Of a stretch of DNA of 53,813 nucleotides, positions 2,700 to 53,813 are shown one piece after another. The stretch spans positions 1 through 53,813 of IMG/VR virus record IMGVR_UViG_3300020109_000024; one strand, written 5' to 3'. Made by a program: the position numbers and the translations under genes. This DNA is from a virus. The notes under the pieces are model-generated. The model saw only the letters and a program-made list of their open reading frames with translations, had not been told where the DNA came from and ran no database searches. How positions within the stretch are numbered: the first letter of the stretch is position 1; every line of letters starts with the position of its first letter.

Positions 2700-2727
2700 T
2701 TGCACAAGTTGCTGATTCAATTAATGT
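2700..2727 (+). promoter_or_regulatory. Candidate promoter of the methyltransferase gene
   Basis: TTGCAC (2700-2705), 16 bases, then TAATGT (2722-2727), in a patch clearly richer in A+T than the phage core. Transcription would begin about 2734, directly at ATG 2735, so the message could be leaderless; no Shine-Dalgarno sequence is visible there. The rest of 2593-2734 shows no gene. Confidence 0.35.
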
Positions 2728-2734
2728 TTCGTCC

Positions 2735-3346
2735 ATGGATGCGACTTATCACCTGAATGGCGGCTTCAAGCCGACCATGAAGCGCTTCGCCGATTTGGAG
2801 GGGCCGGACTTCTTCCCAACCCCTGCTTGGGCGACTTATGCTTTGATCGACAATGAAAAATTTCAAGGCGACATGTGGGAGTGCGCCTGTGGGAACGGCG
2901 CTATGTCAAAAGTTCTCACACAGGTGAACCCAAAGGTTGCTAGCTCAGACCTCTACGATCGAGGGTTCGGCGAAGCCGGGCACGACTTCGTGGCCAGCAA
3001 CAGGCGCTTCGACAACATCATTACAAATCCGCCCTATAATAGCGCCGAAGGCTTCGTTCACAGTGGAATAAGAAACTCAAATAGAAAATTTGCTCTACTG
3101 CTTAGGCTGGCTTTCCTCGAAGGCGCAAACCGACAAAGGACGATTTTCACTAAAAATCCACCTAGCAGGCTTTGGATATTCAGTGAGAGGATTACGTTCT
3201 ATCCTCATGGCGCTGTTCAAAAAGGAACTGGCACCACCGCCTATGCCTGGTTTGTATGGGATAAGGATGCCCCTGGCTCAACCGAGTTGAAGTGGCTCAA
3301 GCCAGGGTACAAAGCTAAGTTCTCAAACAAGTCTCTTGTTCTTTAA
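2735..3346 (+). CDS. Phage N6-adenine DNA methyltransferase
   Basis: A 203-residue SAM-dependent methyltransferase. It has the FFPTPAWAT..L signature of phage-type orphan adenine methyltransferases (residues 26-36), a motif I-like CACGNG (50-55), an acidic SSDLYD after the next strand, and the catalytic N6-adenine motif NPPY (98-101). About 200 residues is normal for a beta-class orphan MTase without a separate target domain. It sits alone between the early and late operons, has lower GC than its neighbours, and converges on a Mrr_N-like gene with a 24-bp 3' overlap. It may protect phage DNA from host restriction or act with that neighbour. Start is uncertain: ATG 2735 (possibly leaderless) or ATG 2777. 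Confidence 0.85.
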   Translation: MDATYHLNGGFKPTMKRFADLEGPDFFPTPAWATYALIDNEKFQGDMWECACGNGAMSKVLTQVNPKVASSDLYDRGFGEAGHDFVASNRRFDNIITNPPYNSAEGFVHSGIRNSNRKFALLLRLAFLEGANRQRTIFTKNPPSRLWIFSERITFYPHGAVQKGTGTTAYAWFVWDKDAPGSTELKWLKPGYKAKFSNKSLVL

Positions 3347-3649
3347 GTGTAACCGGCCACGGTCGGTTATACGCCATGTGCCCTTGGCAAGTATCTCTGC
3401 GAGGCCTTCGCAGAATATATTGCCGGGGGTGTCCTTATGGGAAACTTGGTTCCTGACCTGCTGCTCCCATAATTCTTCATTCGCACGTGTCAAAGATTGC
3501 GCAAGATCATCATCCGACAGCTTGAGATGTTCGGTGATCTTGTGCTTGATAGTTGGAACATCTGATGTTCCATCAGGCTCATAATATAGAACTTGTAGGA
3601 CAGCCAAGCCAACTTCGGCCTCTGTCACGCGATTATGCTTCGAAGGCAC
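3323..3649 (-). CDS. Stand-alone Mrr_N-like winged-helix protein
   Basis: A 108-residue protein resembling the N-terminal DNA-binding domain of Mrr-type restriction enzymes: an N-terminal helix pair (VLQVLYYEPDG), then LWEQQVRNQVSH, then the C-terminal GTWRITDRGR..L wing. The Mrr catalytic domain (D..ExK) is absent. GTG 3649 is chosen because GGGAGG (complement of 3655-3660) stands 6 bases upstream; a TTG at 3688 in the same frame lacks this. It converges tail-to-tail with the methyltransferase. It could be a target-recognition partner, a regulator or a remnant of a restriction gene; the sequence does not decide this. Confidence 0.7.
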   Translation of the reverse strand: MPSKHNRVTEAEVGLAVLQVLYYEPDGTSDVPTIKHKITEHLKLSDDDLAQSLTRANEELWEQQVRNQVSHKDTPGNIFCEGLAEILAKGTWRITDRGRLHLKNKRLV

Positions 3650-3991
3650 ATTATCCTCCCGCTCTGGGAGTGGAATAATGACTTGCAATTTGCGAATGCG
3701 CTAGACCCGGTCATCCTAATCGAGCCCGCGTACACCTCAACATTTTTAGGTGAGGCAGCTGCAACATGCCGTTCTTTTGCCCCGGCTGCCGCAGGGCATT
3801 GGCTTTGTGCCCAGCGCTCAGGCAGGGGCAGAATGGGGTTCGTGATCGCGGGTACAATCTTTTCACGGACCAGCCTGGGGGTAGAGCATCCTATTGTAAA
3901 ATAAAAGAAAAAATACTTTTTACTTTATATACTAGCCTTCTCTCTCCCCTCCCTATCCAGACCCCTTCCATAGAGGGGGTTCTCTATAGGG
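3650..3991 (+). promoter_or_regulatory. Regulatory gap before the late operon, with AT-rich promoter candidate and hairpin
   Basis: This 342-base stretch has no gene I trust. Bases 3890-3935 are an A/T tract ending in a consensus-like -10 box TATACT (3928-3933) but without a good -35 box, as expected for a promoter needing an activator. ATAGAG (3970-3975) and CTCTAT (3982-3987) form a hairpin just before the NusG-like gene. This is the most likely start of the late transcript. A 93-codon open frame crossing the AT-tract (3766-4047) looks accidental. Confidence 0.4.
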
Positions 3992-4792
3992 GTGCGAAAT
4001 CGCCGGGTGAAAAGGTACTCGGGCTTGCCGCCAGCGCCGCGATATGATCGCCCCGCCACGTCGCCACCCGGTTCGGATCTCTCGCCACGGAGATCCACCC
4101 TGTCTCGCCCTGCTAAGTCCAAGAAGCGCCGTCTGCGCGAGCAGCGGCGTGCCCGCACCGAACGCCGAGCCCTGCACCCCTCGCCTATCGCGCCGACGAA
4201 GCCGGAACCCCGATCCGCGGCCGATCCCGTCTACGATCTGGAGCCGCGCCGGCTGAACTCGGACCTGCGCTGGTACATCGCCCGCACCCTCCCCCGCATG
4301 GGTGACCGGGCGATCCAGGCGCTCAAGGCCGCCGAGGTCGACATGTTTCAGCCCCGCACCTCCGAGGTCGTGGTGCGGCGTGGGCGACGCGTGGTCCGTC
4401 ACGCCCAGCTGCTGATGCGGACCGTGTTCATCGGCGTGCGGGATGCCCCGCATCTCGACGAAGCCCGCAACGCGGTCGGCGTGGCCGAGATCGTCAGCCG
4501 TCCGGAGCCAGACACCGGTCCGCCGGGCAACATCGCCGGCATGGTGATGCACCCTGTCCGCCTCGACCCGGAGGCGCTGCAGAGGTTCGTCGATGCGGTG
4601 GTGACCGGCGAAATCGTGGCGCCGCTGAGCGTCGCGGAGGGGTCGAGCGTCATCGTGCGAGCCGGCCCCTTCGCGAGCTTCCCCGGCACCGTGGACGCGA
4701 TCCTGCCCGGCGATCGGCTGAAGGTCGCCGTCAGCATCTTCGGCCGCACGACACCTGTAGAAGTGGGGCTTGCGGACGTGGCGATCGTGTAA
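3992..4792 (+). CDS. NusG/RfaH-like transcription elongation (antitermination) factor
   Basis: Up to 266 residues. Residues 92-195 match the NusG N-terminal domain: DLRWYIARTLPR, then AIQALKAAEVDMFQPR, then VVRRGRRVVRHAQLLMRTVFIGV. Residues about 216-266 match a KOW domain (EGSSVIVRAGPFASFPGTV). NusG paralogues bind the RNA polymerase clamp and suppress pausing or termination. It is the first gene of the roughly 31-kb late region, the place of lambda Q, so I infer a late antiterminator. The start is unclear: GTG 3992 has no spaced Shine-Dalgarno and the first 36 residues are Pro/Arg-rich filler, whereas a CTG at 4100 lies 7 bases after GGAG (4089-4092). Either start keeps the whole NGN-KOW core. 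Confidence 0.75.
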   Translation: MRNRRVKRYSGLPPAPRYDRPATSPPGSDLSPRRSTLSRPAKSKKRRLREQRRARTERRALHPSPIAPTKPEPRSAADPVYDLEPRRLNSDLRWYIARTLPRMGDRAIQALKAAEVDMFQPRTSEVVVRRGRRVVRHAQLLMRTVFIGVRDAPHLDEARNAVGVAEIVSRPEPDTGPPGNIAGMVMHPVRLDPEALQRFVDAVVTGEIVAPLSVAEGSSVIVRAGPFASFPGTVDAILPGDRLKVAVSIFGRTTPVEVGLADVAIV

Positions 4793-4893
4793 TATGCGCG
4801 CGCACCTTTTCAGCCGCCGCTTGTCTCCCCTTCGGGGTTGCGTGTGCGAGCCGCGGCGGGGACGGACAGCCCTCTACCTGGGCGGATCCGCTT

Positions 4894-4927
4894 CCCTGCG
4901 ATGGAGGCTTGTGCCTCGGCGGCAGGG
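4894..4927 (+). other. Stem-loop just upstream of the tRNA
   Basis: Nested stems CCCTGC (4894-4899)/GCAGGG (4922-4927) and GAGGC (4904-4908)/GCCTC (4913-4917) with a TTGT loop, 7 bases before the tRNA. It may be a processing element for releasing the tRNA from the late transcript. A smaller hairpin (CCCC-TTC-GGGG) lies near 4832-4842. No coding potential is seen in 4793-4934. Confidence 0.4.
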
Positions 4928-4934
4928 TGCATGA

Positions 4935-5011
<77 letters not shown>

Positions 5012-5031
5012 TTTCACCATGAGGTCGATCG

Positions 5032-5358
5032 ATGGGCCTGCCTGACATCTTCGGCTTCAAGCGTCGCGCAGAGGAGCGGCGGCGCCGCGAGGAACAGGAG
5101 TGCCGCCTGCGTCGCGCTCGCCTCCTCGGCACCTCTGGCTCGCCTCGGTCGGCCTCGTCCCGGTCGGCATGGGACGACAGCCCGATGAACCCGGCGTCGC
5201 CCTCGGGCATGGTGCTGAGCCCTCTCAGTCCGATCTCGCCCAGCAATGGCGGGTCGGACTACTCGTCCTTCGAGAGCTGCACCCCCTTGTCGTCCTACTC
5301 GGACAGCGGGTCGTCCTGCTCCGGTGGGGACAGCGGCGGCGGGGGCGGTGGGGACTGA
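5032..5358 (+). CDS. Hypothetical Ser/Gly-rich protein
   Basis: 108 residues. The first 35 are basic and helical (FGFKRRAEERRRREEQECRLRRARLL); the rest is Ser/Pro-rich and ends in a Ser-Asp-Gly tail with six glycines. Small phage proteins with such disordered tails are common near structural genes. A GAGG motif about 8 bases before ATG 5032 supports the start. It begins 20 bases after the tRNA. No function can be assigned; a disordered, possibly virion-associated protein is plausible. Confidence 0.55.
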   Translation: MGLPDIFGFKRRAEERRRREEQECRLRRARLLGTSGSPRSASSRSAWDDSPMNPASPSGMVLSPLSPISPSNGGSDYSSFESCTPLSSYSDSGSSCSGGDSGGGGGGD

Positions 5359-5483
5359 CCCACCCTCGACCGTCAGGGCCCCTGGAGGCCCCGAACCTAT
5401 ACGGGTGGTCGGGGCCCCGTTCATTTCTAGCGCCAGGGTCCGAAAACCCGTGAACGGTGAACGGTGAACGCAGGGGTGAACGC
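5359..5483 (+). other. Candidate cos / terminase-recognition region with four GTGAACG repeats
   Basis: Between the Ser/Gly-rich gene and the small terminase lie three tandem 7-mers GTGAACG (5450, 5457, 5464), a fourth at 5476, and the perfect palindrome CGGGGCCCCG (5410-5419). In lambda, cosN and the gpNu1-binding repeats of cosB sit just upstream of Nu1, so position and repeat structure fit a packaging site. This is inference; the cut site cannot be read from sequence. Confidence 0.4.
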
Positions 5484-6119
5484 TTGCCGACGGTGATGAG
5501 CCAAGCCGAGTTCGCCCGGCACCGCGGCGTGTCGAAGGCGATCGTCACGAAGTGGAAGGGGCAGGGCCTCCTCTCGCTGACCGATGCCGGCAAGGTCGAC
5601 GTCGACGCCACCGAATGGAACCTCGACCAGCGACCGGCGAGCTACCGCGGCGGCACCACGCATCGACCGGTGCGGGCCATTCCGCGCGACGATGAGCCGG
5701 TTGGGAAGCCTGCCCGCCCCGCCGCCGCGCCGCGCCCGGCTCCGCCTGCGCCGCAACCGGTGAACGATGAGGCCGGGTCCGATCCGGTCGAGATCGATTG
5801 GGACGACCCGAACCTGCCGCCGAACCTCGCGCTCCAGCGCAAGGAGAACTACCTCGGCCTGCTGCGGAAACAGGATCACGGGGTGAAGCAGAAGGCCCTC
5901 GTCGATCGGCCCGCTGCGGAAGCCGCATTCTTCGAGGAGGCCCGAGCCATCCGCGACGCGCTGATCGCTTGGCCGGCCCGCGTGTCGATCGAGATGGCCG
6001 ATGAACTCAAGATCGATGCTCGCGAGCTGACCCAGGTCTTAGCCGCCTATGTCAACCAGCTCCTCACCGAACTCGGTGAGCCCTCCGACCTCGACCTATC
6101 TCGACACAGCCAGCCTTAG
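5484..6119 (+). CDS. Terminase small subunit (Nu1-like)
   Basis: About 211 residues, beginning with a helix-turn-helix (MSQAEFARHRGVSKAIVTKWK) like lambda gpNu1, followed by a Pro/Ala-rich linker (80-110) and a helical C-terminus that would contact the large subunit. It recognises phage DNA for packaging. The frame is open from GTG 5457, but that lies inside the GTGAACG repeats; TTG 5484 has AGGGG 7 bases upstream and leaves the repeats non-coding. ATG 5496 is also possible. The 3' end overlaps the large subunit gene by 71 bases. Confidence 0.8.
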   Translation: MPTVMSQAEFARHRGVSKAIVTKWKGQGLLSLTDAGKVDVDATEWNLDQRPASYRGGTTHRPVRAIPRDDEPVGKPARPAAAPRPAPPAPQPVNDEAGSDPVEIDWDDPNLPPNLALQRKENYLGLLRKQDHGVKQKALVDRPAAEAAFFEEARAIRDALIAWPARVSIEMADELKIDARELTQVLAAYVNQLLTELGEPSDLDLSRHSQP

Positions 6120-8133
6120 GCGTTCGTGGCGTAAGGGTCTGACCCCACCGCCGAACCTCGACGTGGTGGATTGGGCCGAGAACTTCCGGAAGCTGAGCAA
6201 GGAAAGCTCGAACGGCGGCAAGTTCATCACCGCCAAGGTGGAGGTGGCGCGCGGGCCGATGCTCTGGGCGACGGAACCGGGCGTCAGCAAGATCACGCTG
6301 ATGGCCTGCACGCAGCTCCTGAAGACCACGGTCATCGAGAACATCCTCGGCCGGTTCATCCACCTCGATCCCTGCCCGATCCTGGCGGTGCTGCCGAAGG
6401 ACGACGCGGCCGAGACCTTCTCGAAGGACCGGCTCGCGCCGATGATCCGGGATTCGAAGAAGCTCCTCGAACTGTTCGGTGAGGCTAAGTCGCGGGATGC
6501 CGGCGCGACGCTGACGCACAAGCAGTTCCCCGGCGGGCACATCACGCTCGTCGGAGCGAACAGCCCGACCAACCTCGCCATGCGGCCGATCCGGCTCTTG
6601 GTGTGCGACGAGATCGACAAGTACCCGCTCTCGGCCGGCGGTGAGGGCCCGCCGATCGATCTCGCCGAGGAGCGGCAGGCCGAGTTCAAGGCCAACAGTC
6701 TGACCGTGCTCGCCTGCTCGCCGACCGTCGCGGGGCGCTCGGCGATCGAGACGAGCTACGAGGAGAGCGACCAGCGCAAGGCTTTCGTCTCCTGCCCGCA
6801 CTGCTCGGCCTGGCAGCCGATGGAGTGGGAGCAGGTCAAGTTCGACAAGGACGACGACGGCAAGATCATCGCCGCGAGCGCCCGGTACGAGTGCGTGGCC
6901 TGCGAGAAGCCGTGGAGCCCGGCACAGCGGCTCGTGGCGCTTCGCCGGATCGAGTGGCGGCAGACCAAGCCGTTCGCCTGCTGCGGAGAGAAGCAGGTGC
7001 CGGAGCAGTGGGCGCCGCTGGCGCACGGGGTGCGGCGGGCGCTGTGCCGGTGCTGCGGCGCCCAGGCGGTGTCGAACGAACACGCGGGCGGACAGGCGTC
7101 CAAGCTCTACGCGCCGAAGCAGACGATCAAGGAGACGGTCGCGAAGTTCGCGCGGGCGCTGCGACGGGGGCCGGAAGCGTTGCGGACCTTCTTCAACACG
7201 CAGCTCGCCCGCACGTGGAGGGAGGGCGTCGACGCCCCCGAGTGGAAGGACGTCTACGCCCGGCGCGACGACTACCTGTCCGGCACGGTTTCGCACGGCG
7301 CGCTGATCCTGTTCGCCGGTGTCGACGTGCAGAAGGATCGCCTCGAAGTCTCGGTCTGGGGCTTCGGGCGCAACCGCGAGCGCTGGCTGGTCGAGCACCG
7401 GGTGCTCACCGGCGACACCGCCCGGCCCGCCGTCTGGGCCGAACTGGTGACCATGTTCGACGAGACCTGGGAGCACGCCAGCGGCGTCGAGATGGCGGTG
7501 CGGGATTGGGGCATCGATTCGAGCGCCTTCACCGACGTGGTCTACAACTTCGTCCGGTCCCAGGCCGGCCGCGGCAACGTCCACGCCATCGACGGCCAGG
7601 ACAGCTACTCGAACATCTATCTCGGCGTCGGCAACAAGGACGCGAACCCGCGGGGCAGGAAGATCCGGCGCGGCCTGAAGACGGTCCGCATCGGCGTCTC
7701 GCTCGCCAAGCAGGAACTGATGAACTGCCTCGGCCTGCAGCGCCCCGCTGCCGGCGCGGCGTTCCCGGCCGGCTTCGTTCACCTCCCGCGGGACGTGTCC
7801 GAGGACGGCGTGCAGCAGCTCACCGCCGAGGAACTGGTGGTCAGCCTCAGCCGGGGAAAGACCCGGCGGGAATGGGTGCCGATCGGCGGGCGCCGCAACG
7901 AGTGGCTGGACTGCGCGAACTACGCCCGCGGCCTCGCCGCTTTCCGCGGGTGGGACCGGTGGCGCGAGACGCAGTGGCACGGCCTGGAAGACGCGCTCGG
8001 CATTGAGCGGAAGACGGCGCCACTGCCGCTAGAGACCCCGCCGCCGGCCGTGGTCGCGAACTCGCTGGCAGACCGCAACATGAAGCGCCGCACCCGGCGC
8101 AGCGTGGCCCGCAAAGGGCCGGCGAGGTGGTGA
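6049..8133 (+). CDS. Terminase large subunit (GpA family)
   Basis: 694 residues, typical for the lambda gpA family; it pumps DNA into the prohead and cuts it. The N-terminus has LRRSWRKGLTPPPNL and WAENFRKLS, both typical. The ATPase Walker A position reads ACTQLLKTTVIEN (86-98) where relatives have Q-V/L-G-K-S/T, so the glycine before the lysine is replaced by Leu; Walker B is LLVCDEIDK (183-191). A cysteine-rich insert (CPHC, CVAC, CC, CRCC; about 248-345) may bind zinc. The nuclease domain starts at GVDVQKDRLEVSVWG, with RDWGIDSSAF and GLKTVRIGVSLAKQEL downstream. ATG 6049 is needed to include the conserved N-terminus, despite the 71-base overlap. Confidence 0.93.
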   Translation: MSTSSSPNSVSPPTSTYLDTASLRRSWRKGLTPPPNLDVVDWAENFRKLSKESSNGGKFITAKVEVARGPMLWATEPGVSKITLMACTQLLKTTVIENILGRFIHLDPCPILAVLPKDDAAETFSKDRLAPMIRDSKKLLELFGEAKSRDAGATLTHKQFPGGHITLVGANSPTNLAMRPIRLLVCDEIDKYPLSAGGEGPPIDLAEERQAEFKANSLTVLACSPTVAGRSAIETSYEESDQRKAFVSCPHCSAWQPMEWEQVKFDKDDDGKIIAASARYECVACEKPWSPAQRLVALRRIEWRQTKPFACCGEKQVPEQWAPLAHGVRRALCRCCGAQAVSNEHAGGQASKLYAPKQTIKETVAKFARALRRGPEALRTFFNTQLARTWREGVDAPEWKDVYARRDDYLSGTVSHGALILFAGVDVQKDRLEVSVWGFGRNRERWLVEHRVLTGDTARPAVWAELVTMFDETWEHASGVEMAVRDWGIDSSAFTDVVYNFVRSQAGRGNVHAIDGQDSYSNIYLGVGNKDANPRGRKIRRGLKTVRIGVSLAKQELMNCLGLQRPAAGAAFPAGFVHLPRDVSEDGVQQLTAEELVVSLSRGKTRREWVPIGGRRNEWLDCANYARGLAAFRGWDRWRETQWHGLEDALGIERKTAPLPLETPPPAVVANSLADRNMKRRTRRSVARKGPARW

Positions 8134-35489: not shown

Positions 35490-35852
35490 ATGCTCACGCC
35501 GTTTGGAAAATCACTGAGGAAGCTGAGGCTCGACCGCGGGTTGCTCCTCAAAGATATGGCCGACTTGCTCGACGTTTCCCCGTCGTTCCTGTCGGCTGTG
35601 GAGGCCGGACGCAAGGCTATACCCGCTCGAATTATCGACGAAATCGGGCATGGCTACAGCCTTAACTCCGCGGAAATAGACGATCTGCGACGTGCAGCTC
35701 TCGCATCTACCAAGGAAATGACTATTCGCTTCAACGGAAGCTCGACAGACGCTGATAGGGAAGCAGCTGCGCTTCTTGCGCGCACCTTCGAAAACGGTGT
35801 GTCTGATGACTTCCTTGCAGGTCTGAAAGACCTTCTTGATAGGAAACGATGA
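35490..35852 (+). CDS. XRE-family repressor
   Basis: 120 residues. Helix-turn-helix in residues 5-60 (FGKSLRKLRLDRGLLLKDMADLLDVSPSFLSAVEAGRKAIP), then a helical region. GAGGA stands 8 bases before ATG 35490. It overlaps the ImmA-like gene by 4 bases. In ICEBs1 the pair ImmR/ImmA controls excision, the protease cleaving the repressor on DNA damage; other XRE/ImmA pairs are toxin-antitoxin-like. Here it is separate from the phage's own CI-like repressor. Confidence 0.85.
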   Translation: MLTPFGKSLRKLRLDRGLLLKDMADLLDVSPSFLSAVEAGRKAIPARIIDEIGHGYSLNSAEIDDLRRAALASTKEMTIRFNGSSTDADREAAALLARTFENGVSDDFLAGLKDLLDRKR

Positions 35853-36397
35853 TGAGTGACGTTCGACTAGAGGCGGCTCCGCGTTCCAAAGCTGAGATCG
35901 CCGCAATCGGTTGGAAAATCCGTGAACAGTTCCACCTGACGGAGCCATTCCTGCCTGTGGCCGCCCTAGTCGAGGTAATTCTGCCTCGCGCTCTCGGAGA
36001 CCGGTTCATTTTCACAGTCAAGGATAAGTACGAGATGGGTAATCGGCACGGATGCGTCGATCCCAGTACCGGTGAATTGAGTCTTCGAGAGGATGTTTAT
36101 GACGGCTTATGTCGTGGCGTAGGGCGCGATCGTTTCACAGCATGCCATGAGTTGGGGCATTGGATGCTGCACCGAGGATCGACGCTCAACCGTGTCGGCC
36201 GCGAGAAGCACATCCCAGCCTACCGAGATCCGGAATGGCAGGCCAATGAGTTTTCAGCCTCGATCTTGATGCCGCGGCCGCTCATTTCGAGGTACAGAAG
36301 TGCTCGCGAGATAGCGCAGGACTTCGGAGTTTCTTTGGACGCTGCTGATTACCGAGTGCGAAAGCTCGGTTTGCACCAGCAGGGCCAAGGCAGCTGA
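35849..36397 (+). CDS. ImmA/IrrE-type metallopeptidase
   Basis: 182 residues with the zinc-protease motif HELGH (100-104) and the downstream QANEFSASILMPRPLI typical of ImmA/IrrE (COG2856). The C-terminus (ISRYRSAREIAQDFGVSLDAADYRVRKLG) looks like a helical substrate- or DNA-contact region. It most likely cleaves the XRE repressor encoded just before it. Coupled by a 4-base overlap. Confidence 0.88.
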   Translation: MMSDVRLEAAPRSKAEIAAIGWKIREQFHLTEPFLPVAALVEVILPRALGDRFIFTVKDKYEMGNRHGCVDPSTGELSLREDVYDGLCRGVGRDRFTACHELGHWMLHRGSTLNRVGREKHIPAYRDPEWQANEFSASILMPRPLISRYRSAREIAQDFGVSLDAADYRVRKLGLHQQGQGS

Positions 36398-37428: not shown

Positions 37429-38388
37429 ATGATGCCTCGCAATCCAATTGAAGCCGATTGGCTCATTCGTTCTGCCGAAGAAGAGGCCGCGCGCGCCGAG
37501 CGCTGGGCTGCCGTAGCGCAGCAGCAGATGGCATACCAAGCTGCCATGGCGAAGGCGCACGCCGCCGACGCTGCCGGGCTCCGGGCCCTTTGGACCTTCG
37601 GGTCACTGCCCACCCCTGGATCGGTCGATCAGCCGAATCGGCCCGAGGTGGCGGTGGCCATCGAGGTGCCTGCACCCGAGCCGGTCGAGCCACCCAGATG
37701 CCGGTTCTGCGGGAAGCCGACACGGATCTGGCAGGGGAAGCCGCAAAGGTTCTGCACGTTCTCAAAAATAGCCTCTGGCTATTCGTGCTCCCATCGGTGG
37801 CGCGATCAACGCAACACGGAGCTCAGGAGGAAGGCGAAGGCGGAGGCGCAGAGGGAGAGGGCAGAGATCTTGGCAGTCGATCTGCCGGATATCGCCTGCA
37901 CCGAGGTCGCGTCGATCACATCGGAGGCTCCAACGTGCCGGCAATGCGGCAAGCCCACACGCATCTGGAGAGGCAGGCCTCAGAAGTTCTGCTCGCCACC
38001 CGCCGGCCGCACGACCTCTCCCTGCGCGTCGGCATTCCATTGCCGGGCTCAGCGGGGGCGGTCCACGCGGAGCCCGGCACAACGCGCGCGTCGGGCGAAC
38101 AAGCAGCCCGAACCGGTTCGCCCGACCGGATCGGTTCTGGCGACGGCCTCTCCACGGGCAGAGGGGCATGACCTCCTGGCGACGGTGACGCGCGCAGTCT
38201 CGGCGAGCCTGCCCGACGAACTGCGATCGGAGATCATCAGCGAGACGGTCGTGCTCATGCTTGAGGGGGCGAAGCTCGCGGATGCCATAGCCGAAGCCTC
38301 GAAAAGCGTCCGTAGGAACGCCGCACCGCTCCGCTACACCAAATCGATCGACGACTGCTTTTGGCTGGCGGAGGAGCCGTCGGACTGA
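37429..38388 (+). CDS. Tandem zinc-finger protein, paralogue A
   Basis: 319 residues. Two copies of a Cys4 finger with identical spacing C-x2-C-x14-C-x10-C: residues 91-120 (CRFCGKPTRIWQGKPQRFC...C) and 170-199 (CRQCGKPTRIWRGRPQKFC...C). A conserved C-terminal domain, about 235-315, runs TGSVLATASPRAEGHDLL, then LPDELRSEIISETVVLMLEG, ASKSVRRN, SIDDCFWLAEE. The same architecture occurs in the protein at 44248-45516 of this phage. The C-terminal helices faintly recall sigma region 2-like domains, but that is weak. A nucleic-acid-binding role is inferred. GGAGGG precedes ATG 37429. Confidence 0.75.
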   Translation: MMPRNPIEADWLIRSAEEEAARAERWAAVAQQQMAYQAAMAKAHAADAAGLRALWTFGSLPTPGSVDQPNRPEVAVAIEVPAPEPVEPPRCRFCGKPTRIWQGKPQRFCTFSKIASGYSCSHRWRDQRNTELRRKAKAEAQRERAEILAVDLPDIACTEVASITSEAPTCRQCGKPTRIWRGRPQKFCSPPAGRTTSPCASAFHCRAQRGRSTRSPAQRARRANKQPEPVRPTGSVLATASPRAEGHDLLATVTRAVSASLPDELRSEIISETVVLMLEGAKLADAIAEASKSVRRNAAPLRYTKSIDDCFWLAEEPSD

Positions 38389-38907: not shown

Positions 38908-39564
38908 TCAGAACTCGCCGGCATCGGGGTCGTACTCCCGCTCGTGGTGGCCGAAGGCAGCGGTCAAATTGTCAGAGACTGTATGCGCGCAACAGATCGC
39001 GCAGGTCGGCGGGTACGCTGCCGCGGAAAGCACGTCGTAAGCAGCTAGGAGAGAGCCGCCCGTCGTAATGACATCGTCTACCAGGATGACAGCCCTCGAT
39101 CTCGGCCGAGAGATTAGGACCATACCCTCTGCCAGTGCTGTCCGGTCGCGCGTGCCACCAGCTGCAGCTCGTTCCATCTCCTTGCTGAAGCGCAGGATGC
39201 ACTCAACGTTGGCTTCGAGGTCCGACCCGGCCATCGCCTCTCTGACCATTTCAGCAGAACGGTAGGTTTCCGCCCTGACGAGACCATCTTTCGAGGGGAC
39301 GGGGATAATCGAAGGATCTTCGATACCGAGATGGGAGATTCGGCCCCTCACGAAAGACCCGAAAATTTCCCTGGCACGATGAACGTTTTTTGTATCGATC
39401 TCTTCGTGCGGCTTGTTCTTCCACGGAACAGTCATATAGCCGTTAATCAAGCCGCTCTTTACTGCGCGAGTGAACTTGAACGCATCCCATTGCTTCTGCG
39501 TGCGCGGAGCAAGGTTTTTATGCGCATACTGGGAATAGTAAGCGCACATGAAGTGAACGTTCAT
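38908..39564 (-). CDS. ComF-like phosphoribosyltransferase
   Basis: 218 residues. The PRPP-binding loop VILVDDVITTGGSLLAAYDVL (about 159-179) and the upstream IIPVPSKD strand are type I phosphoribosyltransferase hallmarks; the layout is ComF/amidophosphoribosyltransferase-like. The N-terminal 70 residues (VHFMCAYYSQYAHKNLAPRTQKQWDAFKFTRAVK) are unusual. Start 39564 overlaps the DprA-like stop in ATGA, so the two are translated together, DprA-like first. In competence, ComFC and DprA both serve single-stranded DNA uptake; here, in a phage next to attP, I infer a two-protein nucleotide- or ssDNA-sensing system, perhaps anti-phage. Confidence 0.8.
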   Translation of the reverse strand: MNVHFMCAYYSQYAHKNLAPRTQKQWDAFKFTRAVKSGLINGYMTVPWKNKPHEEIDTKNVHRAREIFGSFVRGRISHLGIEDPSIIPVPSKDGLVRAETYRSAEMVREAMAGSDLEANVECILRFSKEMERAAAGGTRDRTALAEGMVLISRPRSRAVILVDDVITTGGSLLAAYDVLSAAAYPPTCAICCAHTVSDNLTAAFGHHEREYDPDAGEF

Positions 39565-40310
39565 GGGGAGCTTTTGATCGCGTCCAGCAGGTCTGCGGTC
39601 GACGTGAGAATGCGGACATTCTTGTCGCCTAGAAAGCGATTGGGCCACGTTAGGGTTGTGTCGTCAACCACTGATCGCATGATGAAGAGCCAGCGCTTCA
39701 GCCGCCCACACTCCGCCGCTTGATGCAGCGTGCCGGACGTGTCCGAAGCCTCCACGATCACCGTCGCATCCGAGATGGCAGCCATGACACGATTCCGCTT
39801 GGGGAAATTGCTGCGGAAAGTGCGCTCCCCGATCTCGAAAGGTGTCAGGAGAAGGTGGTTGCGCCAGACGGTCTCCTGAAGCTCAGAGTTCTCGGCGGGG
39901 TACGCCTTATCGAGAGGAGTCCCGATAATGCCGACCACGGAGCCATCGTGATCGATCGCGGACGTGATCGCCGCCGTATCGACGCCCTTGGCGAGACCAC
40001 TAACTACGGTCACACCAGCGGCAGCGAGTTCACGCGAAAGGCGAGCGGCACGCTTCCAGCCGGCGTCTGAAACGTCCCGGGTTCCCACGATCGACACGCA
40101 TGGGCGCTTCAGCAGATCGAGGCTGCCGGCATAGTAGACGGATGCGGAACCGGACCCATCGCCTGTTCGCAGGAGATCCATCTGCTTCGCAGCGAGCGGG
40201 GCGCGGCCGATCTCCGCCAGCAAGTCTGCCAGCCCTATAGAAGAAGGTGCGCTGGGCGCTTGGTAGCGCCGACGCGTCATCTCCCTCATTGTCGGCTCAG
40301 CGATGCTCAT
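39561..40310 (-). CDS. DprA/Smf-like SLOG-domain protein
   Basis: 249 residues from ATG 40310 (no clear ribosome site; a later ATG at about 40289 is possible). The Rossmann-like DprA fold is complete: CVSIVGTRDVSDAG (71-84), GVTVVSGLAKGVDTAA (99-114), GIIGTPLDKAYPAEN, and FPKRNRVMAAISDATVIVEA, SGTLHQA. The SAM and winged-helix domains of full-length DprA are absent. DprA loads RecA on ssDNA; SLOG-superfamily proteins are also thought to sense nucleotides in bacterial conflict systems. It forms an operon with the PRTase. Confidence 0.85.
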   Translation of the reverse strand: MSIAEPTMREMTRRRYQAPSAPSSIGLADLLAEIGRAPLAAKQMDLLRTGDGSGSASVYYAGSLDLLKRPCVSIVGTRDVSDAGWKRAARLSRELAAAGVTVVSGLAKGVDTAAITSAIDHDGSVVGIIGTPLDKAYPAENSELQETVWRNHLLLTPFEIGERTFRSNFPKRNRVMAAISDATVIVEASDTSGTLHQAAECGRLKRWLFIMRSVVDDTTLTWPNRFLGDKNVRILTSTADLLDAIKSSP

Positions 40311-40723
40311 ACAGCCAAGTTGCGCGCTCAAGCTTAACCATCCCCTAAGCTCCGCCGCCACCCGACAACCTAGTTAACAACGCGTCAGCTGTCGCGCCTT
40401 TCCCGGTATCAGAAAGCTGTTGATCCCCAACGGGTTCCAACGTTAAGCGGCCGATGTTCCTGTTTTGTTCTATTGCGTTAGGCCTCAGGCGACAAGTGGG
40501 CGAAAGGCGTAGATCCGCCGCGAGATGATTCGCTGAGCGCATTCCGATCGCCACAAGGCCGAGGCTCGCGCGGGGCAAGCGGCGATGGCCGCCCGACCTT
40601 GTAGCGACAGGCTCCGCTTTGCCCGCTTTCGGCGTTTCGACAGCGACGAAAACTTCTTGTAGAACAACGGAGGCAAATCAAACGATTTGTCGAAATATGC
40701 TCTGATCCGGCTCAATTTTGGGG
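40311..40723. other. Intergenic region between DprA-like gene and attP
   Basis: No convincing gene. The promoter of the leftward DprA-PRTase operon must lie in 40311-40480; candidates such as TTGTTAACTA (complement near 40370-40380) are weak. The arm-type integrase sites expected around an attP may also be in here, but I see no clear repeated motif. Confidence 0.4.
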
Positions 40724-40771
40724 AGACTCTTAATCAGCGGGTCCTAGGTTCGAACCCTAGTGCGCCCACCA
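40724..40771 (+). other. attP core: 3' part of tRNA-Lys(CTT)
   Basis: This segment reads as the 3' half of a tRNA: anticodon loop CTCTTAA, then the 3' anticodon stem TCAGC, variable loop, T-arm CTAGG-TTCGAAC-CCTAG, acceptor strand TGCGCCC, A and CCA. The 5' half is missing. Phages of this type integrate into the 3' end of a tRNA gene and rebuild it from their own copy. It lies 58 bases from the integrase stop. The target is thus a host tRNA-Lys(CUU) gene ending TGCGCCCACCA. Confidence 0.88.
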
Positions 40772-40828: not shown

Positions 40829-42037
40829 TCATTTCGACAAACCCTCCCGCTTCGTTCTCGCCTCCAGCCGCTTGCGCGCACCCTCGCGCCGCTGCGCGGC
40901 CGTCGTCTGAGCGTAGCGGAGCAGTGCGGCCGTGGTCAGGTGACCGCTGAGCGCGCGGAGCTGCGCGTCGGTCAGGCCGGCCTCGGCGCCCTCGACGTTG
41001 CCTCCGTGGCGTAGGCCCATGAACTTCACCTCCGCGTCGATCCCGGCCGCCTCGCGGATCTCCGCGACCTGATGCCGGAAGTAGTCCGGCTGCCACGGCA
41101 GGTGCACCTTGCGGCGGCGGTCGAGCTGGTCGCGCGTGACGATCAGCGTCCCGCGCCGCGGCAGCGCATCAAGGCGCTCCGTCATTTCCGGCCAGAGCGA
41201 CGTGCCGTCCGTGTCGAACAGCGGTACCTCGACCAGTTCTCCGGTCTTGTGGTGGAACACGCGCACGATTCCCGGCGCGTCCGCTGGCCGGTAGTGCGTC
41301 CAGGCCAACCGGGTCAGGATGTCCTCCTGCCGCTGCAGCCAGAAGAACGCGATCATCGCGGCCGTACCGATCGACCCCTCCCCGGCTTTGTCGGCGGCGG
41401 CGACGAAGCGGACGAGTTCGGCGTGCGTCACCGGCCGCGTCGCCTTCGCCTTGTACGCGAGGCCCATCTTGGCGAACGGGTTGTCGAGCGGGATCTCGCG
41501 CGGCCGATCGCGGCGGGCGACGTTCCACGCTCGCTTGCAGACCGTCATCGCTAGGATGGCGGTGCGCACCCGTGCCGTGCCGTCGGCCTTGGTCTTGAGC
41601 CGGTCGTAGAGCCGATCGGCGACGCCGGGCTGGATGCTGGCGAGCGCGAGCGATCCGAAACGCCGACCGTCCTTCATCTTGTAGTCGGCCACGAGGGCGA
41701 GCGCCGAATCGTAGCTCTTGCGAGTGCGGGGCGGCCGGTCCGTGAATTTGGGCGAGGACCGGTAGATGCCGGTAAGCCAATCGAACGTGCCGACCTTCGC
41801 CGCCGCCTCTACAATGGGCGCGGTCGAGCGCGTGCGCCACGCATCGAACTGCGGGTTAAGGATCTCGTCGCAGCGCCGCTTGGCCTCGCCGTAGTCGCCG
41901 CCGAGCGATTCGAACGTGAGCGGGCACCCCCTCTTGGTCGCCCAGGTGGGCGGACCCCAATAGTAGGCGGTGGCGCCGGTCTTCAGGCGGCGGGCCACCA
42001 TCAGCTTGGGCCAGCCGACTGGCTTCGTGCGCGGCAT
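40829..42037 (-). CDS. int: Tyrosine recombinase (phage integrase)
   Basis: 402 residues. Catalytic residues: Arg236 (WLQRQEDILTRL), Lys264 (HHKTGE), Arg343 (MGLRHGGN; the usual first His of HxxR is Met340), His366 (LSGH) and nucleophile Tyr375 (LLRYAQTT). The N-terminal core-binding/SAM-like region covers about 75-185. It integrates and excises the phage at the nearby tRNA-Lys attP. It is the last gene of the leftward operon; its start overlaps the upstream stop (TGATG). Confidence 0.95.
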   Translation of the reverse strand: MPRTKPVGWPKLMVARRLKTGATAYYWGPPTWATKRGCPLTFESLGGDYGEAKRRCDEILNPQFDAWRTRSTAPIVEAAAKVGTFDWLTGIYRSSPKFTDRPPRTRKSYDSALALVADYKMKDGRRFGSLALASIQPGVADRLYDRLKTKADGTARVRTAILAMTVCKRAWNVARRDRPREIPLDNPFAKMGLAYKAKATRPVTHAELVRFVAAADKAGEGSIGTAAMIAFFWLQRQEDILTRLAWTHYRPADAPGIVRVFHHKTGELVEVPLFDTDGTSLWPEMTERLDALPRRGTLIVTRDQLDRRRKVHLPWQPDYFRHQVAEIREAAGIDAEVKFMGLRHGGNVEGAEAGLTDAQLRALSGHLTTAALLRYAQTTAAQRREGARKRLEARTKREGLSK

Positions 42038-43262: not shown

Positions 43263-44248
43263 GCCGGCTGCCCTTCGCGCTTCATCCTGCGCACCTTGGT
43301 GGCGGCGATCTCTTCGCCCTCGGCGGCAGCGATATTGCAGAACGTCTCGACCAGTTCGTCCGGCACCCATGCCGGCACATCGACCAAGCCGGTGGCGGGC
43401 GCCCTGGCGGGCTCCTCGGCACGAGGCATGGCGCGACGCCCGAGCTTGCGTGCGGCCTTGAACCACACCGCGGCCAGCCCGCGCCACACCGGCACGCGGT
43501 GGACGGCGGCGTGCTCCTTTGCGTCCTGCTCTGCGATCTTACCCGGCGATGCCTGGATCGCCCGCACGAGCGCGTCGCGATCAACCTCGGCGAACTCTTC
43601 CGTCGTGGCGAGATGCTGCAGGGCCCGGATGTGGGCGGCGGTGATCGGTGCGAGGTTCGCGTCAGCGAGTGCCCGCAGGACCCACACCGCGTCGGCCTCG
43701 TCCTCTGCCGCCACGAGCGCCCGCACCGCTGCCACAGCGATCGTCGTGCGGAGCTTGTAGACCCCGCCGGCGGGTGGGATGCGTAGGACGGTGACGTCCG
43801 CAGCCTCGCAGATCCGGGCCACGCGCAGCGCGTCCTCGTCGCCGGCCGCGACGGCGGCGGCGTGCATCTGCACGGCGGTGATGCCGAGGCGGTCGCGGTT
43901 GTGACCGATGAACGCCTGGGCGCGATCGACCTGTGCCTCTGCCTGGACGACCACGACCGGGATCTCGGCGATGCCGCCGTGCGTCTCGGCGGCGATGGCC
44001 GTGTGCTGGCCGTCGATGACCTCCAGGCCCTGTTCCGTCCGCGCGGTCACCGGCGGCTTGAACCGCCGCCAGTCCCAGCCCTCGACGATTCGCCGGATCA
44101 ATCGAATCGACTGTTCCGAAAGGTCGCGCTGGTACGTCGCATCGATCAGCAGCTCGCCCGGCTTCACCCACACGATTTCGGGTTTTCCGGTCGGCGGCGT
44201 CCCGGGCGCAGCGCCCGGCAGGTCGAGAGCAATAACGGAACGCTTCAT
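43259..44248 (-). CDS. ParB/Sulfiredoxin-fold protein
   Basis: 329 residues from ATG 44248 (TGATG overlap with the gene upstream). It has the ParB-N core: IVWVKPGELLIDATYQRDLSEQSIRLIRRIVEGWDWRRFKPPVTA, then VIDGQHTAIAA (the conserved DGQH/DGxHR motif), then IPVVVV. Such proteins bind or cut DNA or act with methyltransferases. The C-terminal 180 residues are helical. It may act in control of early phage genes; no partition role is implied because there is no ParA. Confidence 0.8.
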   Translation of the reverse strand: MKRSVIALDLPGAAPGTPPTGKPEIVWVKPGELLIDATYQRDLSEQSIRLIRRIVEGWDWRRFKPPVTARTEQGLEVIDGQHTAIAAETHGGIAEIPVVVVQAEAQVDRAQAFIGHNRDRLGITAVQMHAAAVAAGDEDALRVARICEAADVTVLRIPPAGGVYKLRTTIAVAAVRALVAAEDEADAVWVLRALADANLAPITAAHIRALQHLATTEEFAEVDRDALVRAIQASPGKIAEQDAKEHAAVHRVPVWRGLAAVWFKAARKLGRRAMPRAEEPARAPATGLVDVPAWVPDELVETFCNIAAAEGEEIAATKVRRMKREGQPA

Positions 44249-45516
44249 CAGACCATCTCCGGCATGTCTTGGGTTTCGTCCGCGAGCCAAAAGCAATCGT
44301 CGATTGACTTCGCGTAGCGGAGGCGGCTGCCATTGCGGCGGACGCTCTTGGATGCTTCGACCACGGCCGCTTTGATCTCGGCGCCTTCCAGCGTCAGCAG
44401 GGCTGTCTCGCTGATGATCTCCATCCGCAGGGAGTGCGGCATGGCAGATGGCACCGCGGCGTGGATCCGCGAAAACAGTTCGTAGCCGGCACTGCGAGGC
44501 GACGCTGTCACGAGCACCGATCCCGTCGGCAGAGGCTCGGCAGGCTTGATCGCAGGCTTCTGCGTGCGCCATTTCTGCCGAAGACGCTCGCGGCCTTCGG
44601 GCGTCGCCATCATGCGCTGATAGCGTTCGCGATCACGCTCGCGCTCGCGCTCCAGGCGCGCCGCCTTTCTCGTTGGGTCGGCATTGAGCTTCTTTTGCGC
44701 AGCAGCTTCAGCGCAGCGGCTTCGCCCGTTCACCTTCGAGCAATAGAGCTGCGGCTTGCCGCCCCGGAAGCGAGTCGGCTTTCCGCACGTGACGCAATTT
44801 GGCATCTCGACTGGATAGTCGGGCGTAGGCCTCTCCACTTTGCGGCGCTTGGGAATGCCTTTCTCAGCTCTGTGACGAGCCTTGAGCGCTCGATTTTTTT
44901 CTAGGTGCTTCGCCCATCTGACTGGGTTGTTGCGCAGATATTTATAGCTTCTTTGTCTTTTTTTCTTTTTGGAGGTCGGGTCGGTCCTATCCTTCTCACG
45001 CGCTATCCTGTTCGAATGTCGAATGAGACAGAGAGACCGTGGCCCGCCCGGCTGTGGGGGGCAGAACCGAACTGGCTTGCCCTGATAGAAGCGCGTAGGC
45101 TTGCCGCACTCCTCACACTTGGGCGCCTCAGTGGTTTGGCCTGCAGCGAGCCACTCGGCCCGGAACCGCGTCGAGATGGGCAGCTCGCGCCGGACGTCCG
45201 CCTCCAGGCCGACCAAACCGACGACGAATTGCGGGTTCTCGCTGGCAAAACGAGCGGCGGCGCGCTTTGCCAGGGCATGTGCAGCCCGCTCCGTTCCGAA
45301 GGGGCCCGAGCGCTCAACCAGCGGGCCGGCCGCGATGCCGATCAGCGACCGCGAGAAGCCGAACTGCGCGCCGTCGGGGACAACGCGGAAAATCGCCTTC
45401 GGCCGCTGCTGCGGTTGAGCCGTCGCGCTCAGCACGCGCCCGATGGCCCGCTCAATGCGGGTCTCGTCGTCATGCCGGGCGAACGCCGCAGCTCTCCTAG
45501 CCGGAAGGCCGCTCAC
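44248..45516 (-). CDS. Tandem zinc-finger protein, paralogue B
   Basis: 422 residues from GTG 45516. Two Cys4 fingers: C134-C137-C152-C163 (CEECGKPTRFYQGKPVRFC) and C241-C244-C259-C268 (CVTCGKPTRFRGGKPQLYC), with basic Lys/Arg-rich linkers between and after them. The C-terminal 80 residues (TGSVLVTASPRSAGYELF, SLRMEIISETALLTLEGAEI, ASKSVRRNGSRLRYAKSIDDCFWLADE) are clearly homologous to the end of the protein at 37429-38388. It also has an N-terminal domain of about 125 residues that A lacks. It is an early leftward gene under CI control, so perhaps a regulator of lysogeny or of host processes. Confidence 0.8.
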   Translation of the reverse strand: MSGLPARRAAAFARHDDETRIERAIGRVLSATAQPQQRPKAIFRVVPDGAQFGFSRSLIGIAAGPLVERSGPFGTERAAHALAKRAAARFASENPQFVVGLVGLEADVRRELPISTRFRAEWLAAGQTTEAPKCEECGKPTRFYQGKPVRFCPPQPGGPRSLCLIRHSNRIAREKDRTDPTSKKKKRQRSYKYLRNNPVRWAKHLEKNRALKARHRAEKGIPKRRKVERPTPDYPVEMPNCVTCGKPTRFRGGKPQLYCSKVNGRSRCAEAAAQKKLNADPTRKAARLERERERDRERYQRMMATPEGRERLRQKWRTQKPAIKPAEPLPTGSVLVTASPRSAGYELFSRIHAAVPSAMPHSLRMEIISETALLTLEGAEIKAAVVEASKSVRRNGSRLRYAKSIDDCFWLADETQDMPEMV

Positions 45517-53424: not shown

Positions 53425-53813
53425 TGATGACAGCGAACTATCCCGACGGCGAGACCATCGTGTCCCGCATCAAGGGCGACCGCGAACCCGTCATCTGCGG
53501 CGTCTGCCGCCGCCGGGCCACGACCGGACTCGGGTGGGCCGGGCAACAGGGCCGGCCGATCATGTGGTTGTGCGATGATCCGATCTGCGGGCAGCTCGCG
53601 AGGACGGTGTACGAGATGCCGAAGCTCAAGCTCGATGCCTTCGAGGAGGCGGCGCGGGACGATGCCGGCGAGATGGCGGGCGCCTACCTCGATTCCATCG
53701 GAAAGACGGACCTCGCCACGCTGACCGGCGAGGAGTGGGCGACCCTGCTGCATCAGGTCATTGTCGGCTTCGAGGCGGGCCTGCGCACTCGCATTCTCAA
53801 GGGCATGGCACCG
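53424..53813 (+). CDS. DUF6511-like protein (5' part, cut by the window end)
   Basis: 130 residues are visible; the circle adds one Phe and a stop at 128-133 (131 in total). An N-terminal zinc-ribbon-like segment: VICGVCRRRATTGLGWAGQQGRPIMWLCDDPIC, with C-x2-C ... C-x4-C. The rest is helical and acidic (LDAFEEAARDDAGEMAGAYLDSIGKTDLATLTGEEWATLLHQVI). This matches DUF6511-type proteins of alphaproteobacterial phages. It lies between helicase and primase-helicase, so a replication accessory is likely. Start 53424 or 53427 (ATGATG). Confidence 0.75.
   Translation, partial: MMTANYPDGETIVSRIKGDREPVICGVCRRRATTGLGWAGQQGRPIMWLCDDPICGQLARTVYEMPKLKLDAFEEAARDDAGEMAGAYLDSIGKTDLATLTGEEWATLLHQVIVGFEAGLRTRILKGMAP
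53688..53813. repeat. Terminal direct repeat, right copy (circular overlap)
   Basis: Identical to bases 2-127; see the left copy. Removing one copy gives a circle of 53,686 bp. Confidence 0.9.

Follow-up and report, generated by a model that had tools for sequence, protein, structure and literature searches.

A compact ShosTA-like DprA–phosphoribosyltransferase operon beside attP of a temperate phage, a probable toxin–antitoxin defence module

The question raised by this locus is why a phage should carry, beside its attachment site, two adjacent genes that resemble the competence genes dprA and comFC. The whole stretch of DNA analysed, hereafter the window, is the virus record IMGVR_UViG_3300020109_000024 of 53,813 bases. 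Its ends duplicate each other (2-127 and 53688-53813, 100% identity over 126 bases), and the record therefore represents a complete phage genome in circularised form, not an integrated prophage. Genes for a lambda-type portal, a tape-measure protein and an S24-type repressor were detected, as expected for a temperate tailed phage, which this virus is. The features of the locus are the following:

38908..39564, minus strand: type I phosphoribosyltransferase (PRTase) of 218 amino acids, ShosT-like, putative toxin/effector
39561..39564, minus strand: four-base overlap (ATGA) between the stop codon of dprA and the start codon of the PRTase gene, read from the sequence; tight coupling recurs in homologous pairs
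39561..40310, minus strand: DprA/Smf-like SLOG-fold protein of 249 amino acids, ShosA-like, putative antitoxin/sensor
40311..40724, minus strand: intergenic region ahead of the operon; its position makes it the presumed promoter region
40725..40771, plus strand: attP core, corresponding to the 3' portion of a tRNA-Lys(CTT) gene (anticodon stem-loop through CCA) and adjoining the integrase
40829..42037, minus strand: tyrosine integrase of 402 amino acids (sub-threshold PF00589 match at 4e-4, with 20.6 bits against a family cut-off of 27.1)

Both open reading frames, with their coordinates, strand and four-base overlap, are present as described in the original prediction, and the overlap suggests that translation of dprA and the PRTase gene may be coupled. 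The start of dprA is ambiguous, the candidates being ATG at 40310, TTG at 40331 behind AGGGGA, and GTG at 40361. Neither gene is a chance open reading frame, as judged by the Pfam match of the first (PF02481), the side-by-side conservation of the two and purifying selection, which was strong on both genes in one close homologue pair (dN/dS approximately 0.07 for DprA and 0.06 for the PRTase). The operon had also been credited with its own control region; a gap of approximately 410 bases does exist upstream of dprA, but no recognisable consensus promoter or terminator was found in it.

The position of the operon beside attP was borne out and could be sharpened to the 3' part of the tRNA-Lys gene next to the integrase. 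After integration, the operon would sit at the prophage end away from the integrase. Relatives of the integrase were 60-82% identical, and in three other records an intact tRNA-Lys gene lies approximately 60 bases from the homologous integrase. The exact tRNA stretch of attP had no match among the 240 genomes searched. The paired DprA was absent from the examined parts of four records with related integrases (60-82% identical), which fits the cargo status of the operon, but weakly, because some of these records are fragments. The opposite ends of two records with integrase relatives gave no convincing match to defence models, the one match being at 20 bits with no stretch passing alone. In one record with a related integrase (L078), a protein of 1246 amino acids and unknown function is encoded near the far record end (2709-6449), and it showed a faint PADLOC match (PD-Lambda-4_A, 2e-5) with no stretch passing on its own.

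Sequence and structure analyses identified the first protein of the operon as DprA/Smf-like, with matches to DNA_processg_A (PF02481, 4.9e-50) and to the PADLOC ShosA model (PDLC03961, 3e-63, 211.9 bits). Its AlphaFold model (pLDDT 91) matched in Foldseek the DprA of Streptococcus pneumoniae, the DprA of Helicobacter pylori and the ShosA of Escherichia coli (8zva, E 1.9e-14). The motifs GTR (76-78) and SGLAKGVD (104-111) are in the places given by the original prediction, as is VDDVITTGG in the PRTase, and the winged helix is absent. Residue R78, which is invariant in 21 proteins, corresponds to R115 of S. pneumoniae DprA, and R166 stands where the latter has K202. In S. pneumoniae DprA, R115 binds ssDNA and E235 and M238 contact RecA (PMC4066776); the two RecA-contact residues are replaced here by A199 and G202, according to one pairwise alignment. 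The retention of R78 together with the loss of the RecA contacts suits a protein that may bind DNA without loading RecA.

These residues bear on the idea that the operon is a phage recombination or DNA-protection pair, in which the DprA-like protein would aid recombination and the PRTase would salvage nucleotides. Nucleotide-metabolism genes are frequent in phages, which counts for it, as does the loading of RecA on ssDNA by DprA in competent bacteria (PMC4066776). The replacement of both RecA-contact residues argues against such a pair, as do the position of the operon at the prophage edge and its closeness to a known defence system, and this explanation is considered highly improbable.

The match of the PRTase to Pfam Pribosyltran (23.8 bits) is below the cut-off of 26.3, and that to the PADLOC ShosT model (PDLC03962) is weak (6.9e-6, 24 bits); the same model matches all 21 aligned PRTases, the window protein included. 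The AlphaFold model (pLDDT 92) gave the ComF of H. pylori (7p0h) as the best Foldseek match by E-value, and the PRPP-bound ShosT (8zvc) as the one with the top TM-score (0.46) among the matches listed. In the PRPP loop, the DDxxTxG core, represented by VDDVITTGG in the window, is invariant in 21/21 PRTases. The Pfam search found neither a HAD domain nor a zinc ribbon (DZR_2) in the window PRTase. Neither protein searches with the PRTase in phage and plasmid collections nor a DNA search of plasmids for distant matches returned anything, and relatives were therefore reached through DprA, since the PRTase diverges too fast.

The DprA relatives were gathered from IMG/VR and GTDB genomes, and the downstream gene was inspected at each locus. 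The co-occurring pair was recovered throughout: a PRTase-type gene lies directly downstream in 22/22 of the closest DprA-like loci (49-65% identical), which include near copies (L003/L014 and L011/L024). In one of the 22 (L005), the downstream open reading frame is divergent and has only a PRPP-loop-like motif, IFDDVLTSG, and in a more distant locus (L025, DprA 46% identical) the corresponding frame has LIDDLLTKG; these two were excluded from the PRTase alignment. The more distant matches, at 30-36% identity (L026-L032), are chromosomal dprA genes without a PRTase. The closest paired relatives of the phage operon are mostly alphaproteobacterial. In the reverse direction, 30 PRTase matches were examined from 385 genomes of one class, of which three scored above 220 bits and all three lie directly behind a paired DprA, two of these genomes having contributed rows to the search model. 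The other 27 were weak (at most 62 bits), and none had a paired DprA in the DNA stretch examined (0/27); three of them were checked and all were ComF-type with a double zinc ribbon. All seven host genomes tested contain, besides the paired DprA as an extra copy, another DprA match that is far weaker and in one genome incomplete.

In a phylogenetic tree, the paired DprA proteins, 24 in number and with those of Burkholderia phage Mana and Pseudomonas phage Riah among them, formed one clade (support 100/99) apart from housekeeping DprA. Two ShosA proteins and the DprA of phage SopEPhi branch elsewhere, with long branches and unsure placement. These results bear on the idea that the operon is a competence locus (DprA plus ComF) acquired from a host. 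The pair shares with competence DprA/ComFC the SLOG fold with its ssDNA-binding arginine and a ComF-like PRTase fold, and the ComF structure is the best Foldseek hit by E-value. The hallmark of ComFC, however, is an N-terminal double zinc ribbon joined to the PRTase domain, and the ribbon is absent from the window PRTase and present in all three ComF-type controls; the winged helix is missing, the RecA contacts are changed and the genomic setting differs. Moreover, the weak PRTase matches, ComF-type in the three that were checked, are not beside such a DprA. A competence origin was rejected for want of the zinc ribbon and for the separation of the paired DprA from housekeeping DprA, seen in the second copies and in the tree, and its probability is practically negligible. 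The description of the PRTase as ComF-type thus applies to its fold and not to a true ComF. The broader prediction of anti-phage cargo rather than competence is well supported by homology: the operon is ShosTA-like, its DprA stands apart from housekeeping DprA and a similar pair of a P2-like phage has been published.

Comparison with described systems indicated that the operon is a compact ShosTA-like module, and this kind of system is already known, because compact versions, among them the PRTases of Mana and Riah, fall within the 237-position ShosT model of PADLOC. As in ShosTA (PADLOC ShosA/ShosT; PDB 8zva, 9vzo, 8zvc), which is also found in phages, the DprA-like and PRTase partners are adjacent and co-oriented, and the PRTase fold and PRPP loop are shared. 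The window PRTase, however, has 218 amino acids and lacks the HAD hydrolase domain of the two long ShosT proteins examined: the ShosT of PfAC02a (478 amino acids) has this domain, and the P24C9 protein (424 amino acids) shows a weak HAD-like match. The window DprA is also shorter (249 amino acids), the ShosT model score is low, and in the tree the DprA stands apart from the two ShosA rows, whose long branches are of unsure place. The dprA gene comes first in the window, P24C9, Mana and Riah, whereas the toxin gene comes first in PfAC02a. Since the HAD-less PRTases of Mana and Riah match the 237-position ShosT model strongly, the absence of HAD marks a subtype and not a separate family. In these two phages, a short HAD-less PRTase (225 and 201 amino acids, respectively) directly follows a DprA of the same clade as that of the window, and the pair of Mana adjoins the integrase; their PRTases are divergent from the window's. 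The literature searches made found no published function for the Mana and Riah pairs.

The same two components occur on temperate phages in the hotspot of E. coli P2-like phages, where a DprA plus PRTase pair protects against T7 and lambda (PMC9122126). The P24C9 pair, with the order DprA then PRTase, would by its gene content be of the kind tested there; that hotspot lies near cos and not attP, and the P24C9 PRTase is longer, as given above. PsyrTA/RqlHI also has a DprA-like antitoxin, and 8/21 PRTases are matched by the C-terminal portion of the PsyrT model; PsyrT is, however, much longer (model of 689 positions), and the window PRTase is unmatched by it.

Taken together, we favour, with a probability of roughly 75%, the reading of the operon as a compact ShosTA-like toxin–antitoxin defence module, carried as temperate-phage cargo beside attP, in which DprA would restrain the PRTase and infection would release it. 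As the first product of the operon, with its translation presumably coupled to that of the PRTase, the DprA-like protein would hold the PRTase in check in the lysogen. Upon superinfection, this restraint would be lifted, either because the DprA-like protein senses phage proteins or DNA intermediates or because host functions are damaged, and the freed PRTase would use PRPP uncontrolled, so that nucleotide pools would be distorted and the cell halted before the invader multiplies. The reading joins what was directly established here (the genes, their coupling, the conservation of the pair, homology, fold and retention of the PRPP loop) to toxicity, an antitoxin role and phage protection, which are carried over from the literature on relatives and so would apply by analogy. 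In shosTA and its relatives, the antitoxin is reported to be a DprA homologue (PMC9122126), and a review describes ShosT as a PRTase plus pyrophosphatase that disturbs purine metabolism, ShosA as a DNA-binding protein and T7 Gp0.7 as a trigger of ShosTA (PMC12593503). Expression of the operon in the lysogen, the nature of the trigger and the action of a HAD-less toxin through PRPP are presumed. Against this reading may be set the weak ShosT match (24 bits), the missing HAD domain and the gene order reversed relative to PfAC02a. The original prediction of a defence role is accordingly sound, but the kind of system was already known and the published model pairs a PRTase toxin with an antitoxin of the DprA type; the DprA-like protein may, as first proposed, detect ssDNA or altered nucleotides directly.

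At one of the loci, L024, the PRTase gene (5702-6376) is broken by a stop codon, and the adjacent DprA is identical to that of L011, whose PRTase is intact; this fits loss of a toxin, as a single observation that could be a sequencing error.

The two partners also evolve differently. Over 171 row pairs, DprA averaged 54% pairwise identity and the PRTase 26%. Among the PRTases, that of L022 is 51% identical to the window protein and all others are 18-27% identical; the window DprA, by contrast, is closest to that of L003 (62%) and only 51% identical to that of L022. The PRTase tree joined the window with L022, L010 and L011 (98/100), and the DprA tree joined L010 and L011 with L008 and L018 (97/94). 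The DprA data rejected the PRTase grouping (p 0.014), the PRTase data rejected the DprA grouping (p 0.007) as well as a grouping of the window with L003, L004 and L015, and six smaller clades were concordant between the trees. The DprA data alone did not reject the window and L022 as sisters (p 0.16), so that the case for exchange rests on the four-row tests. This suggests that the window PRTase may be of another lineage than its DprA; partner exchange is supported but not proven, because the groups of the four-row tests were chosen after the trees were seen and the PRTase branches are long.

These data also feed the main rival, a sensor–effector abortive system in which the DprA-like protein would directly activate a PRTase effector that is harmless until switched on. 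The retained DprA fold and ssDNA-binding arginine would serve a sensor, the far better conservation of DprA and the apparent exchange of PRTases resemble a fixed sensor with swapped effectors, and the authors of the P2-like hotspot study suggest that the PRTase is activated by DprA once the latter has sensed phage DNA (PMC9122126). The antitoxin role reported in the same study for DprA homologues of shosTA and its relatives speaks against direct activation, as does L024, which lost its PRTase and kept its DprA, as toxin loss predicts. The sensor–effector system is judged unlikely.

It is possible, if on balance doubtful, that the compact HAD-less modules form a separate defence branch, with a conserved DprA-like sensor and interchangeable, fast-diverging PRTase toxins that would act without the pyrophosphatase step reported for ShosT, perhaps each on its own base or nucleotide target. 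The operon adds a pared-down form to a known kind of defence module, in a complete temperate phage; its minimal toxin and the signs of partner exchange are mildly new. Because the putative toxin consists only of the PRTase domain, it lends itself to a clean dissection of which portion of the ShosT activity toxicity requires. That PRTases seem to have been exchanged between lineages of DprA suggests, in addition, that very different toxins can be accommodated in the DprA–PRTase partnership.

Other genes of the phage were also noted. Two paralogous proteins, encoded at 37429-38388 (plus strand) and 44248-45516 (minus strand), show 37% identity across 238 residues of the former, share repeated CGKPTR..GKP..FC motifs and a common C-terminal region, and flank attP and the integrase on opposite strands; neither had an informative family match. 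At 35490-36397 (plus strand), the gene for an HTH protein shares a four-base overlap with that for a peptidase of the M78 (ImmA/IrrE-type) family. The peptidase matched PADLOC CapP (1.2e-18) and the HTH protein CapH (3e-7), and no homologue of the peptidase was found in the related DprA–PRTase loci; the pair is possibly a second, protease-relieved repressor switch. In addition, the phage genome carries a complete tRNA-Met gene with anticodon CAT at 4935-5011 (plus strand).
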